DNA of 38,169 nt from an uncultured Pelagibacteraceae bacterium (lineage in GTDB: Bacteria; Pseudomonadota; Alphaproteobacteria; Pelagibacterales; Pelagibacteraceae): NCBI GenBank assembly GCA_902635795.1, contig CACPPH010000007.1, forward strand, positions 1-38,169. Direction: 5' to 3'. The notes under the pieces are model-generated. The model did no database searches. It was not told the DNA's origin and saw only the letters and a list, made by a program, of their open reading frames with translations. Shown here one piece after another: positions 5,242-9,259 of this stretch. The translations under genes were made by a program, and so were the position numbers. Positions within the stretch are counted from its first letter, which is position 1. Each line of letters opens with the position of its first letter.

Positions 5242-6132
5242 CTAATCTAACCATTTTTTAAATTTTTCTTGATTTAAAGAAATATATTTTGGCAGCGATT
5301 TCATTTCTAATTTTTTTAATATTGATTTCCCTGACCATTTATATCCTCTTTGATCAACATTATGATCATACATAACTCTTTTTTCACTAATAAGTTTTTT
5401 TATATCTCCTAACTTAAGTCCGCTTTCTTCAAATTCGTAATGGTGTGCGAAATTTAATAGTTTTTTTTCTAAATCCTCAGCATCTCTTATACATGTAAAA
5501 TGCCAACCGCCGTTTTTAACATGATATAAATTTGTATATTTTTTATTTGAAAAAAAAACATCAAGACGCCATTTAGGATACTTTTTTGATTTTATATTTC
5601 TAAGCCATTGAGGAGATTTAAAATTTTTTTTTTTTACAGCTTTTGATCCAGCCCAAATAAAATCCTTGTAAAGTAAATTAAATTTGTAGTAAAACATTTG
5701 TTGTTCAAAAATTATAATATTATCTTTTATTTTACTGAATTTTAAGTTTTCAATGTTTGGAATTTCATCTAGGTCACTTACTATGATTAAATCCTCATCT
5801 TCAGAATTTTTTAGGCCTTTGTTTAAATTCTCTCTTTGAAAGTAGTCTCTAGCCATCCCATTTAAAATCATTTTATCTTTTTTAGATTTTTGAGTTTCTC
5901 TAATATTTAATTCAAAAATATTTTGAGGTTGCTTATCAACAATAATATAAATTATTTTATCCTTAAATTTTTTATATTTGTTAATGTCAAAATTAAGCTT
6001 TTTAGGGCTGCCGTTATGAGTATATGTAGCCTCAGTAATAACAAATTTTTTGACATATTTGTTTAAAGTATTTAGTCTCAAATCTAACAAAAGGTCTTCA
6101 TCATAGTACATGAAGCAATCATAAATATTCAT
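5242..6132 (-). CDS. Glycosyltransferase, family 17-like
   Basis: A 296-residue protein with the opening IYDCFMYYDED-LDLRL, followed by FVITEATYTH, typical of the GT17 family (beta-1,4-N-acetylglucosaminyltransferase-like, Pfam Glyco_transf_17). A DxD-type nucleotide-sugar/metal site lies in VSDLDEIPN (Asp120-Leu-Asp122-Glu123). No signal peptide or membrane segment is evident, so a cytoplasmic enzyme adding a sugar to a surface glycan is likely; the acceptor and donor are unknown. It is on the minus strand, divergent from the sugar epimerase/methyltransferase fusion 51 bases away and convergent with lon. A T12 run at 5624-5635 encodes in-frame lysines. This is probably an accessory gene, since it interrupts a conserved housekeeping order. 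Confidence 0.85.
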   Translation of the reverse strand: MNIYDCFMYYDEDLLLDLRLNTLNKYVKKFVITEATYTHNGSPKKLNFDINKYKKFKDKIIYIIVDKQPQNIFELNIRETQKSKKDKMILNGMARDYFQRENLNKGLKNSEDEDLIIVSDLDEIPNIENLKFSKIKDNIIIFEQQMFYYKFNLLYKDFIWAGSKAVKKKNFKSPQWLRNIKSKKYPKWRLDVFFSNKKYTNLYHVKNGGWHFTCIRDAEDLEKKLLNFAHHYEFEESGLKLGDIKKLISEKRVMYDHNVDQRGYKWSGKSILKKLEMKSLPKYISLNQEKFKKWLD

Positions 6133-6183
6133 GATATTTGAGTTATAATAAAATATAATATAAGTAAATATGAATTAACTTTT
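6133..6183. promoter_or_regulatory. Compact divergent promoter region
   Basis: These 51 bases separate the two divergently transcribed glycan genes and must hold both promoters unless they lie inside the genes. Two TATAAT hexamers on the plus strand (6144-6149 and 6154-6159) could serve the epimerase fusion, with leaders of about 20-30 bases. On the minus strand several TATA-like hexamers overlap the same bases. No clear -35 box is seen, and in a stretch almost free of G and C such hexamers carry little weight. Confidence 0.35.
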
Positions 6184-8736
6184 ATGAAAAAAAAAATCAT
6201 TATTACTGGTGGACTTGGTTATATTGGCACAGAAATATGTAAACTTTATTCAGGGGTCAGCTGGCATCACAATATTATCGTAATAGATAATAGATTCATA
6301 TCTGAAAGAGTGAGTCAAATTAGAAATTGGAATATGAAGTTTATACATGGAGATATTCTCGATAAAAATTTGGTTGAAAGTCAATTCAAGGATGCTGATA
6401 TTGTTCACCACTTAGCCGGTATAACGGATGTTCCAAGAACAAAAAGCGAGTCGTCAAATCTTAAAGATGAAAAAATAATTAAAGTTGGAGTTGAAGGTAC
6501 AAAAAATATTTTAAATGCTATATCTAATAAATGTAAGATTATTTTTCCTTCAACACATGTTGTTTTCGAGGGAATACAAGAAGTAAGAAAAGACATTAAA
6601 GAAGACGAAAACACTAAACCAGTTTTATCTTATGCGTCTTCAAAAGCAATAAACGAAAAACAATTAAAGGAGTCTGGTAAAAATTTTATAATATTAAGAC
6701 TAGGATCAGTTTATGGTTACTCTACAGATTCTATGCGTATTGATATAATGCCTAACTTATTTTCTAAAATAGCTTCTCAAGATGGTACTTTGAAATTATT
6801 TGCAGGAGGAAGACAGATAAAAAGTTTAGTTCCCTTAATAGATGTTGCAAGATGTTTTAAATTTATGGAAGAAAGAGAAGATATTAATTCAGAAATATTT
6901 AATCTAACAAAAGAAACCCTCACTGTTAAAGAGGTTGCAGAAATTTGCAAAAAATACAATCAAAAAGTTATTTTGAGGGAAACAAATGACGAAATACCAA
7001 ATTTAGGTTTTTCATTATCAAATAAAAAACTTTTAAAGGCTGGTTTTGAGTTTCTGTATAACTTAGATCAAAATATTAAAGAAATGATTACAAAATGGTC
7101 AAATCAAAAGATAATTAAAGACTTAGAATATGTTCGAAGTGGTGAAAATCTTTTTGTTGATAAAAGAGGTTCAATAAGTAACCATGAACTCACCGAACCA
7201 ATTAATCTTATAGGATTAATAGAATCTAAAAAGGGCACTATAAGAGCAAACCATTATCACCCACAACAAGAACAAAAATGTTTATTTACCAAAGGACAAA
7301 TAATTGAAGTTTTTCAGGATATTATCAATCCTAATTCTCCAAAGATTACCCAAGTTGTTAATGCTGGTCAATTATCAGTGATTAAACCTAATGTGGCTCA
7401 CACTATGGTTTTTTCTAAAGATACTACTTTTTTAAATTTAGTTAGAGGTGAAAGAGACCATGAAAATTATGGAATAACCCATACAATAAAACATATCTTT
7501 GTAGATGAAAAAGAAAAAAATTTACTATTAAAATGCTATAAATTTGAATGTAGATCTTGTGGAAATATAAATTTGAGAAGAGTGGTGTCATTAGGGTACC
7601 AACCTCTTGCGAATAATCTTTTAAATAAAAAAAATGACGAATGTGAACTTTATCCTTTAGAAGTGAATTATTGTGATAAATGTCACAATTGTCAACTTTC
7701 AGTGGCAGTTGACCCTAAGAAAATGTTTACAAATTACTTATACACTTCATCTACCTCAAAAGTCTTTAGAGATCATTTTGTTACTTCTGCAAAAAAATAT
7801 ATAAAAAGTTTTAAATTAAATAAAACAAAATCATATATAATTGATGTAGGAAGTAATGACGGTATTGCACTTAAACCCTTTTTAGATTTAGGATTTAAAA
7901 AACTATTAGGTATTGAGCCAGCTAAAAATTTAGCAAAATTAGCAAATAAGAATAAAATTAAAACATTTAATGGATTTTTGGAAAAAAAAAATTTACGGAA
8001 AATAAAAAAAAATGCAGATTTAATTCTAGCTTCGAACGTATTTGCGCATTCTGATAAATTAAAAGAAATGGCAGAATGTATGTTAGATTTAATTAGCAAT
8101 AAAGGCGTCATAATTATTGAAGTACAATATTTAATGAATACTTTAAATGATTTAACATTTGATAATATTTACCATGAACATTATAATTACTGGTCTTTAA
8201 CTTCGTTAGTAAATTTCTTCAACCAATTTGATGCGAAAATTATTAAGTCTGAACTTGTTGATACTCACGGTGGATCAATTAGGGTTTATATAAAAAAAGA
8301 TAAAAAAGCAAAAATGGAAAGCAGTGTTAGAAAAATGCTTAAAGAAGAAGAGTCCTTTGGTATCAAAAGATTTAAAACATATCAAGATTTTGGTAAAAAA
8401 GTTTATAAGTTAAGAGAAAATGTATTAAGAAACTTAAAAAAATTAAAAGATAAAAATAAACTAGTAATAGGTTATGGGGCTCCTGCTAAGGCAACCACAG
8501 CTTTAAATTTTTTTGGAATTTCAAAAGAAATAGATTTTATAGTAGAGGACAATAAACTAAAACATAATAAATTTGTTCCTGGAGTAAAGATTCCTATTAA
8601 AAGCAAATCTCAAATTAAGGATAAAAAAAATATTTTAATTGTTTTAGCTTGGAATTTTTATAAGGATATAATAAAAAAAAATTCTGAGCTTTCAGAAAAT
8701 TTTATTAATATTAAAGATTTAGAGACTAATAATTAG
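6184..8736 (+). CDS. Three-domain sugar enzyme: NAD-dependent epimerase/dehydratase + cupin + C-methyltransferase
   Basis: An 850-residue fusion. Residues 1 to about 300 are an extended short-chain dehydrogenase (nucleotide-sugar epimerase/dehydratase): Rossmann motif TGGLGYIG at 8-15 and YxxxK pair Tyr150/Lys154. Residues about 310-440 form a cupin with the metal-type histidines of NHYHP (His357, His359), recalling the C-terminal cupin of CapF-like capsule enzymes. Residues about 450-850 are a sugar C-methyltransferase of the NovU/TylCIII type: zinc site Cys456, Cys459, Cys497, Cys500 (or Cys503), SAM site DVGSNDG at 554-560, the conserved YHEH at 663-666, and the C-terminal GYGAPAKA motif at 763-769. 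It probably makes a branched (C-methylated) deoxysugar for surface glycan. The frame is open throughout. The 3' end overlaps the convergent zinc-ribbon gene by 11 bases. The exact substrate is not knowable from sequence. Confidence 0.9.
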   Translation: MKKKIIITGGLGYIGTEICKLYSGVSWHHNIIVIDNRFISERVSQIRNWNMKFIHGDILDKNLVESQFKDADIVHHLAGITDVPRTKSESSNLKDEKIIKVGVEGTKNILNAISNKCKIIFPSTHVVFEGIQEVRKDIKEDENTKPVLSYASSKAINEKQLKESGKNFIILRLGSVYGYSTDSMRIDIMPNLFSKIASQDGTLKLFAGGRQIKSLVPLIDVARCFKFMEEREDINSEIFNLTKETLTVKEVAEICKKYNQKVILRETNDEIPNLGFSLSNKKLLKAGFEFLYNLDQNIKEMITKWSNQKIIKDLEYVRSGENLFVDKRGSISNHELTEPINLIGLIESKKGTIRANHYHPQQEQKCLFTKGQIIEVFQDIINPNSPKITQVVNAGQLSVIKPNVAHTMVFSKDTTFLNLVRGERDHENYGITHTIKHIFVDEKEKNLLLKCYKFECRSCGNINLRRVVSLGYQPLANNLLNKKNDECELYPLEVNYCDKCHNCQLSVAVDPKKMFTNYLYTSSTSKVFRDHFVTSAKKYIKSFKLNKTKSYIIDVGSNDGIALKPFLDLGFKKLLGIEPAKNLAKLANKNKIKTFNGFLEKKNLRKIKKNADLILASNVFAHSDKLKEMAECMLDLISNKGVIIIEVQYLMNTLNDLTFDNIYHEHYNYWSLTSLVNFFNQFDAKIIKSELVDTHGGSIRVYIKKDKKAKMESSVRKMLKEEESFGIKRFKTYQDFGKKVYKLRENVLRNLKKLKDKNKLVIGYGAPAKATTALNFFGISKEIDFIVEDNKLKHNKFVPGVKIPIKSKSQIKDKKNILIVLAWNFYKDIIKKNSELSENFINIKDLETNN

Positions 8737-9259
8737 TGACTAAATTTTTCCATATTTCAAAAATATTTCTGATGCTTTCAAAAAAATAATTTAAATAATA
8801 TTCAGAAGCTGGTATATTTGAGATTATAAATCCTTGAGAAAAATACAAAATACGCGATAAAGCTATTACAAAGAAAATAAATACAATTAGTGAATTATAA
8901 AATCCAAAAGACACTTTCCCTTTTTCCCGTTTAGTAATTATTTTTTCAGGGTTAGCGTCACTAATTTTGATACCATGCTTTTTTGCTAAATATTCGGGTG
9001 AGTAGAGACTAATTTCTCTTACTTTTTTTGTAGCAGTTTTTTTTACTTTTTTCGGTTTTTGTATTTTTTGTTGAACTGGCTGAGGTTTTGAAAATACTTT
9101 TTGTGGTCGAGAAATTGATTGAGGGTTTTTAACTTCGCCCACAGGAAATTGTTTCCATTTATTTCCGCAAGAACCGCATTGAACCATTCTTCCAGATGGG
9201 GTAATTGCTTCGTCTGGAACAACAAATTTTTTACCGCATGAATTACAAGTTAAAATCAT
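8726..9259 (-). CDS. Zinc-ribbon (MJ0042-type) single-pass membrane protein of unknown function
   Basis: A 177-residue protein. The N-terminus is a zinc ribbon with Cys5, Cys8, Cys28 and Cys31 (CxxC...CxxC, with the ITPSGR and CGSCGNKW features of the MJ0042/zinc_ribbon_5 family seen in many alphaproteobacteria). A proline/lysine/glutamine-rich linker follows (about 45-85), then one hydrophobic segment around 121-145 (FYNSLIVFIFFVIAL) and a short C-terminal tail. The likely form is a cytoplasmic zinc ribbon tethered to the inner membrane; its function is not known. It is transcribed away from the tRNA genes, and its 3' end overlaps the end of the convergent epimerase fusion. The 100-base gap upstream carries a TATATAAAT box on the minus strand that could drive it. 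Confidence 0.85.
   Translation of the reverse strand: MILTCNSCGKKFVVPDEAITPSGRMVQCGSCGNKWKQFPVGEVKNPQSISRPQKVFSKPQPVQQKIQKPKKVKKTATKKVREISLYSPEYLAKKHGIKISDANPEKIITKREKGKVSFGFYNSLIVFIFFVIALSRILYFSQGFIISNIPASEYYLNYFFESIRNIFEIWKNLVTNY

Follow-up and report, generated by a model that had tools for sequence, protein, structure and literature searches.

The locus raises the question of what a protein would do that carries an SDR, a cupin and a sugar C-methyltransferase in a single chain, and of whether such a chain is a genuine enzyme. The window, that is, the whole stretch of 38,169 nucleotides that was analysed, holds on its + strand a single ATG-to-stop frame of 850 aa (6184-8736), and the contig bearing this gene belongs to a draft genome that is 64.8% complete. 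The features of the gene and its surroundings are the following.

6184..8736, + strand: whole gene, a fusion of SDR, cupin and sugar C-methyltransferase, 850 aa (ORF, Pfam, model)
6184..7107, + strand: extended SDR domain, aa 1-308 (Pfam Epimerase; nearest structure Cj1427, 6vo6/6vo8; conservation)
within 6184..7107, + strand: SDR motifs GGxGYIG, Asp35 (NAD type), S123-T124-H125 and Y150-x3-K154
7117..7524, + strand: cupin domain, aa 312-447 (PF14667 and CapF matched weakly in Pfam and PDB searches; modelled as beta strands; conservation)
7537..8733, + strand: sugar 3-C-methyltransferase domain, aa 452-850 (4rv9 MtmC; TcaB9 fold; MtmC and KijD1 alignments)
7549..7728, + strand: Methyltransf_13 zinc-binding subdomain, aa 456-515, with C456, C459, C497 and C500 (Pfam, alignment)
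8263..8697, + strand: Methyltransf_14 C-terminal subdomain, aa 694-838 (Pfam)
5242..6132, - strand: divergently oriented gene for a GT17 glycosyltransferase of 296 aa, which usually accompanies the fusion (PF04724, E 2e-17)
6133..6183, no strand: 51-bp intergenic spacer separating the fusion from the divergently oriented GT17 gene (coordinates)

Pfam matches above the cut-off in the window protein were Epimerase (residues 5-241, 4e-24), Methyltransf_13 (456-515, 2e-15), Methyltransf_23 (543-687, 3e-12), and Methyltransf_14 (694-838, 9e-44). Its motifs comprise G9/G12/G15 and Y150-x3-K154 in the SDR, H357-x-H359 with E363 and H406 in the cupin, and C456/C459/C497/C500, D554-x-GSNDG, and Y663-H-E-H666 in the methyltransferase. 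A whole-chain AlphaFold2 model made with 53 SAR11 and phage sequences reached a mean pLDDT of 88.3 and a pTM of 0.70, and another made with 28 SAR11 sequences a pLDDT of 76.5; the fold-search list of the 53-sequence model was filled by SDR and methyltransferase matches, the cupin lying outside its reach. Conservation was counted on the 53-row alignment of SAR11 and phage sequences with gapped rows excluded, and in each of the three parts the catalytic residues hardly vary within or between the two groups: the SDR motifs, the cupin histidines, the SAM loop, and the YHEH motif were kept in 52/52 rows (the glycines in 51/51), E363 in 50/52, and the zinc cysteines in 45 to 50 of 52 each. The earlier note had read three catalytic parts with intact motifs in one chain, and the frame, the Pfam matches, and these invariant residues bear this out, as does the full-chain prediction, with its TcaB9-like C-terminal part and Cj1427-like SDR.

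The loss of zinc cysteines in some phage rows indicates that parts can decay, which would suit a two-step enzyme with one catalytically silent domain, for example a cupin that only positions the sugar. We consider this improbable: SDR and methyltransferase retain their catalytic residues in 52/52 rows and the cupin its ligands in 50 to 52 of 52, and within SAR11 conservation is highest in the cupin (mean 0.87; the other two parts 0.78 and 0.79). In BFVD, the model also aligned over 865 columns (E 4e-53, 21% identity) with a 743-aa 'Methyltransferase' of Klosneuvirus KNV1 (A0A1V0SJ68); eukaryotic viruses may thus have a protein of comparable multi-domain make-up.

Searches of the family genomes yielded some match at E<=1e-30 in 207/297, methyltransferase-only matches included, and, by hand count, matches over 820 residues or more in 113/297; the fusion is thus not rare. 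In the 134 SAR11 loci, all three parts occurred together in 121 ORFs with a length of 780 aa or more; without duplicates these amount to 97, a number that includes the window's copy. Two loci at the usual lon-nuo site (L123, L132) carry copies interrupted by stops or frameshifts, and four fusions (L118-L121) are truncated by contig ends. In a scan of named genomes, the best 80 of 240 homologues were all from SAR11, most of them titled Pelagibacteraceae. No full-length match was found outside the family in the order sample (197 genomes, many of Pelagibacteraceae), where matches in another family at E<=1e-60 (G310, G311, G315) covered the methyltransferase or the cupin plus methyltransferase only. 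The window's own genome alone matched at E<=1e-80 in the class sample (385 genomes), and a profile search of the phylum sample (398 genomes) gave 78 matches at E<=1e-40 that were whole-length in the window's own genome only; in two genomes of that sample (G784, G842), the match covered cupin and methyltransferase and was interrupted by a stop. Among 72,556 plasmid records, 259 matched, none of them over 80% of the query.

Split gene pairs in a few phages might be taken to indicate that separate genes had been fused by assembly or annotation. Because the parts share one frame in 97 distinct SAR11 copies (780 aa or longer) and in 41 of the 56 phage loci, this artefact is refuted and its residual probability is negligible. 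One locus, L116 in genome G240, was examined as the same three parts in separate genes and rejected: its SDR is an RmlB-type dehydratase and its cupin a different one, and it is therefore analogous, not ancestral.

A fusion restricted to SAR11 was likewise ruled out, by copies in phages. When the family alignment was used to search IMG/VR, 56 loci were obtained via two peptide patterns of the cupin and the methyltransferase, so that forms without these patterns are missed. SDR, cupin, and methyltransferase lie in one ORF in 41 of the 56, at 49-57% identity (L185 and L197 are cut by a contig end, and L194 has its frame broken near the start); five loci hold SDR-cupin only (L206 cut by a contig end), and ten hold other forms. 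Several loci are near-identical, and the counts therefore refer to loci, not lineages. Eight of the 41 fusion contigs exceed 100 kb. The 642-kb phage LR756502.1, the only one of seven matching phage records with most of the query, carries the fusion (53.8% identity over 98%), and 3 bp upstream of it lies a GT17 gene.

Around the fusion of one phage locus (L177), the neighbours are read as exonuclease, DnaB-like helicase, ribonucleotide reductase, and DNA polymerase, and ribonucleotide reductase and DnaB families were found among the phage neighbour proteins. In 46 records, which comprised the 642-kb phage and 45 of the 56 loci and included fragments, a terminase (PF03237) was present in 11 and in none of the other 35, and all genes lay on one strand in 39. 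Among the 120 neighbour proteins tested, of 219 listed, the families Epimerase (13), GT2 (11), FkbM (8), GT11 (7), and GT17 (7) recurred, and within loci GT17 occurred in 11/46. One phage protein of 1124 aa (L198:4995-8369) carries a C-terminal FkbM methyltransferase as a fourth part behind the triple fusion. In another locus (L207:666-3378), a ribonucleotide reductase gene is, by reading, apparently interrupted by intein- or homing-endonuclease-like frames. Pelagimyophages, which are phages of SAR11, have glycosyltransferase-rich host-recognition islands with many LPS-type genes according to the excerpted text of their description, from which the words epimerase and methyltransferase are absent (PMC7029224).

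Quick trees were made to compare the two groups. In the methyltransferase tree (84 rows), 20 SAR11 fusions formed one group (99), the phage fusions formed a neighbouring group with weak support (81) that included five separate phage methyltransferases, and a separate SAR11 methyltransferase (G200) joined the larger group on a long branch (99). In the SDR-cupin tree, the SAR11 fusions and a standalone SAR11 SDR (L122) lay on one side of a branch (99), and the two-domain phage forms were scattered. SAR11 and phage forms thus separate, and the split phage forms lie among the phage fusions; the simplest reading is one fusion origin with later splits. The parts as separate genes, which the earlier note had held against a real fusion, do occur in locus L207, where SDR-cupin and methyltransferase are neighbouring genes; this type lies among the phage fusions, and the SAR11 copies are mostly in one frame. 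The economy of a streamlined cell that the earlier note invoked agrees with the host, a member of the Pelagibacteraceae, and is not the sole account, as phages carry the fusion too.

Cj1427 was the top match of the SDR both by sequence (93 bits, next 61; 26-27% identity) and by fold (Z 35.3, next 32.9 for a GalE). An Asp at the position of Asp35 is typical of NAD-type SDRs, and it was found in 51/51 rows. The Asp-Glu pair of 4,6-dehydratases is absent, T124-H125-V126 standing in 52/52 rows of the SAR11 and phage alignment, and the SDR as an NDP-sugar 4,6-dehydratase was ruled out on this T-H-V in place of T-D-E; the fusions of genomes G228 and G232 read S-H-V, with Ser for Thr and the His kept. 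Excerpts of the Cj1427 work describe a GDP-heptose C4-dehydrogenase with tightly bound NADH that yields 4-keto GDP-heptose and is re-oxidised by alpha-ketoglutarate (PMC10680097). With a C4-dehydrogenase as nearest solved relative and Asp35 conserved, the name 'epimerase' given to this domain in the earlier note was a guess; epimerisation is more likely the task of the cupin, by analogy with CapF. A standalone SDR of 310 aa (L122:2652-3584, genome G008) shares 62% identity with the fused domain and has neither a cupin nor a methyltransferase next to it, and a 312-aa SDR of another SAR11 genome (L261, G042) has a TSNSGYGIG motif resembling that of Cj1427.

The cupin lies below the Pfam cut-off in the window protein (PF14667, E 0.0016-0.0017); among 11 family cupin segments, PF14667 was found in eight and Cupin_2 in seven at E<=0.01, the best at 3e-5. 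Residues H357, H359, E363, and H406 likely form its metal site. The cupin profile had CapF as its best PDB match, a weak one (E 0.06), and no CapF was among the SDR structure matches at E<=1e-5, which leaves a CapF orthologue unsupported. The SDR-cupin order resembles that of CapF, as the earlier note had said.

The third domain matches 4rv9 MtmC at 30% identity (E 2e-38), and in the model it superposes on TcaB9 with a Z of 50.6 and 1.8 A over 393 residues. PF08421 was found in 52 of the 53 alignment rows, and the zinc domain Methyltransf_13 with four cysteines, the SAM fold, YxEH, and Methyltransf_14, which together define the TylC3 type, are all present by sequence or model; the earlier assignment to zinc-containing TylC3-type C-methyltransferases therefore stands. 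Enzymes of this type methylate C3 of 4-keto sugars via an enolate. On another contig of the window's genome (C24), a separate sugar cluster (L134) holds a nucleotidyltransferase, an SDR, a dehydratase read as RfbG-like, and an unfused C-methyltransferase that is 33% identical to the fused one.

These relationships suggest that the protein probably turns a nucleotide sugar into a methyl-branched sugar. First, the SDR with its retained NAD would oxidise C4 of an NDP-hexose to the ketone; second, the metal cupin would epimerise C3 and/or C5 of the 4-keto sugar, any epimerisation at C3 preceding methylation because C3 is quaternary thereafter; third, the zinc/SAM domain would methylate C3 via an enolate; and fourth, the SDR would reduce C4 again to give an NDP-3-C-methyl sugar. 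That the chain is such a trifunctional synthase, its SDR both starting and ending the sequence, is our preferred reading, held tentatively at somewhat less than an even chance. An NDP-3-C-methyl sugar made via a 4-keto intermediate in one chain, whichever enzyme makes the ketone, is well on the probable side when the preferred reading is taken together with the two considered next.

The ketone might instead come from a separate 4,6-dehydratase of the GMD, RmlB or RfbG type. This would supply an NDP-4-keto-6-deoxy sugar for the cupin to epimerise and the third domain to methylate at C3, and the SDR would only reduce C4 at the end, much as in CapF, where the same order is found and, according to the excerpted source, the SDR reduces and the cupin epimerises (PMC5393024). 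Several observations agree with such a route: a GMD-like gene lies in 12/46 phage loci, which fits a dehydratase-made 4-keto-6-deoxy substrate, and GDP_Man_Dehyd accounts for 13 of the 120 neighbour proteins. Known 3-C-methyltransferases, moreover, use 4-keto-deoxy sugars. We also counted dehydratases in 24 fusion-bearing SAR11 genomes (90-98% complete). GMD (at least 47% identity) was present in 15, RmlB (at least 55%; a looser tally at E<=1e-25 gave 19) in 14, RfbG (at least 41%) in 14, and PF02719 in nine, and 20/24 carriers had at least one type. A search with PF16363 gave several matches in each of 20/20 genomes.

However, no dehydratase type is common to all 24, and none of the four types was found in G042, G228, G232, and G290 (drafts 91-93% complete), an absence that is weak because sugar islands assemble badly in drafts. 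In G228, a PF01370 search gave three proteins: besides the fusion, two that by our reading fall outside the sugar-nucleotide SDRs; in G232, the RmlB search gave a weak match (L260; 31%, motif SSSVYG), and two SDRs, L268 and L270, carry Glu in the motif; and G290 and G232 also hold other SDRs, of class not assigned (L263 and L264, respectively). Asp35, which argues for NAD as opposed to the NADPH of CapF, and a dehydrogenase as closest SDR relative also speak against a purely reductive role. We regard supply by a separate dehydratase as a real though lesser possibility.

A net oxidation was considered as well, in which the SDR would be a C4-dehydrogenase re-oxidised by alpha-ketoglutarate, as the excerpts describe for Cj1427 (PMC10680097), and an NDP-3-C-methyl-4-keto sugar would be released for reduction or amination by another enzyme. 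Forms with SDR only or SDR-cupin and no fused methyltransferase (L122, L204, L207, L208, L212) suggest that the first step may take place independently of the others. Neither a reductase nor an aminotransferase lies beside the fusion as a constant partner in the SAR11 and phage loci, which makes net oxidation unlikely, if slightly less so than a silent domain.

Returning to the preferred reading, in which the SDR starts and ends the reaction, the genes around the fusion point to where the sugar might go. In most SAR11 loci, the fusion is flanked by lon and nuoA and has a GT17 glycosyltransferase gene next to it. A GT17 homologue was present within the stretch, not necessarily adjacent, in 77 of 97 distinct SAR11 loci. 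Lon, GT17, and a Zn-ribbon gene or NuoA occurred together in 69/97; Lon with Zn-ribbon or NuoA and no GT17 in 11; none of them in seven; GT17 alone in five; and other mixtures, close to contig ends, in five. In six loci (L097, L098, L107, L108, L124, L130), GT17 is replaced by a small GT2-like gene directly upstream, recognised by a PF00535 match in L097 and by likeness in the other five. In G228 and G232, a head-to-head pair of GT17 (by likeness) and fusion is located elsewhere in the chromosome, and therefore the pair seems to move as a unit; the contig of G232 equals in length that of L102, in which blastp detects GT17. The intergenic region 6133..6183 is possibly a shared promoter region, and the GT17 enzyme is a probable user of the fusion's product. 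Downstream in the window, a Zn-ribbon (PF13717) gene on the - strand (8726-9259) is arranged tail to tail with the fusion and overlaps its end by 11 bases.

The neighbouring GT17, or GT2 in some SAR11 genomes, would then transfer the sugar to a surface glycan, and in phages the enzyme would re-dress the surface of the host or the virion. A more specific proposal is that the SDR borrows a hydride, its own NAD+ taking that of C4 and returning the same one, so that SAM would be the sole cosubstrate consumed and no 4,6-dehydratase would be needed, and that SAR11 and phages exchange the fusion with GT17 as a two-gene surface-sugar cassette. We advance this combined proposal with clear reserve, as possible and somewhat more doubtful than the preferred reading itself.

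Our results establish a real, widespread, and conserved three-part enzyme whose architecture is common to SAR11 and phages. No description of the triple fusion was found among the matches listed from open-access full text, the scope of the search, in agreement with the earlier note, which knew of no characterised example. Few cells on Earth are as abundant as those of SAR11, and their surface sugar chemistry is little known. The phage copies are probably part of a contest over surface sugars, and a conserved gene, probably for a methyl-branched sugar, that is also present in phages and often near the same type of glycosyltransferase makes this contest directly testable. If the SDR starts the reaction, the protein would be a dehydratase-free one-protein route to C-methyl sugars, useful also for synthesis; we know of no such route before.

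Each part of the chain has a counterpart in a known system. Cj1427, like the fused SDR in sequence and fold, is a single domain, and in Campylobacter, according to the excerpts consulted, the epimerase and the reductase that partner it are enzymes of their own (PMC10680097), in contrast to the three-part chain described here. CapF of Staphylococcus aureus shares an SDR followed by a cupin with HxH in one chain, although the cupins are only weakly similar. In the excerpted description its SDR uses NADPH and its cupin is a zinc epimerase (PMC5393024), whereas the fused SDR has the NAD-type Asp35; CapF lacks a methyltransferase, which the fusion adds as a third domain. TylC3, MtmC, TcaB9, and KijD1 resemble this third domain in their full fold, zinc and SAM motifs, and YxEH motif at 26-30% identity, with the same zinc cysteines and, in MtmC, YHEH, but the solved enzymes of this type are separate chains of 416-426 aa, whereas in the fusion the domain follows SDR and cupin in one chain. 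Similar in proposed chemistry is the virenose pathway of Coxiella, for a branched LPS sugar, which the excerpted source puts forward in silico only, with a dehydratase, a 3-C-methyltransferase, and an epimerase/reductase (PMC3539893); there the steps are assigned to separate proteins.
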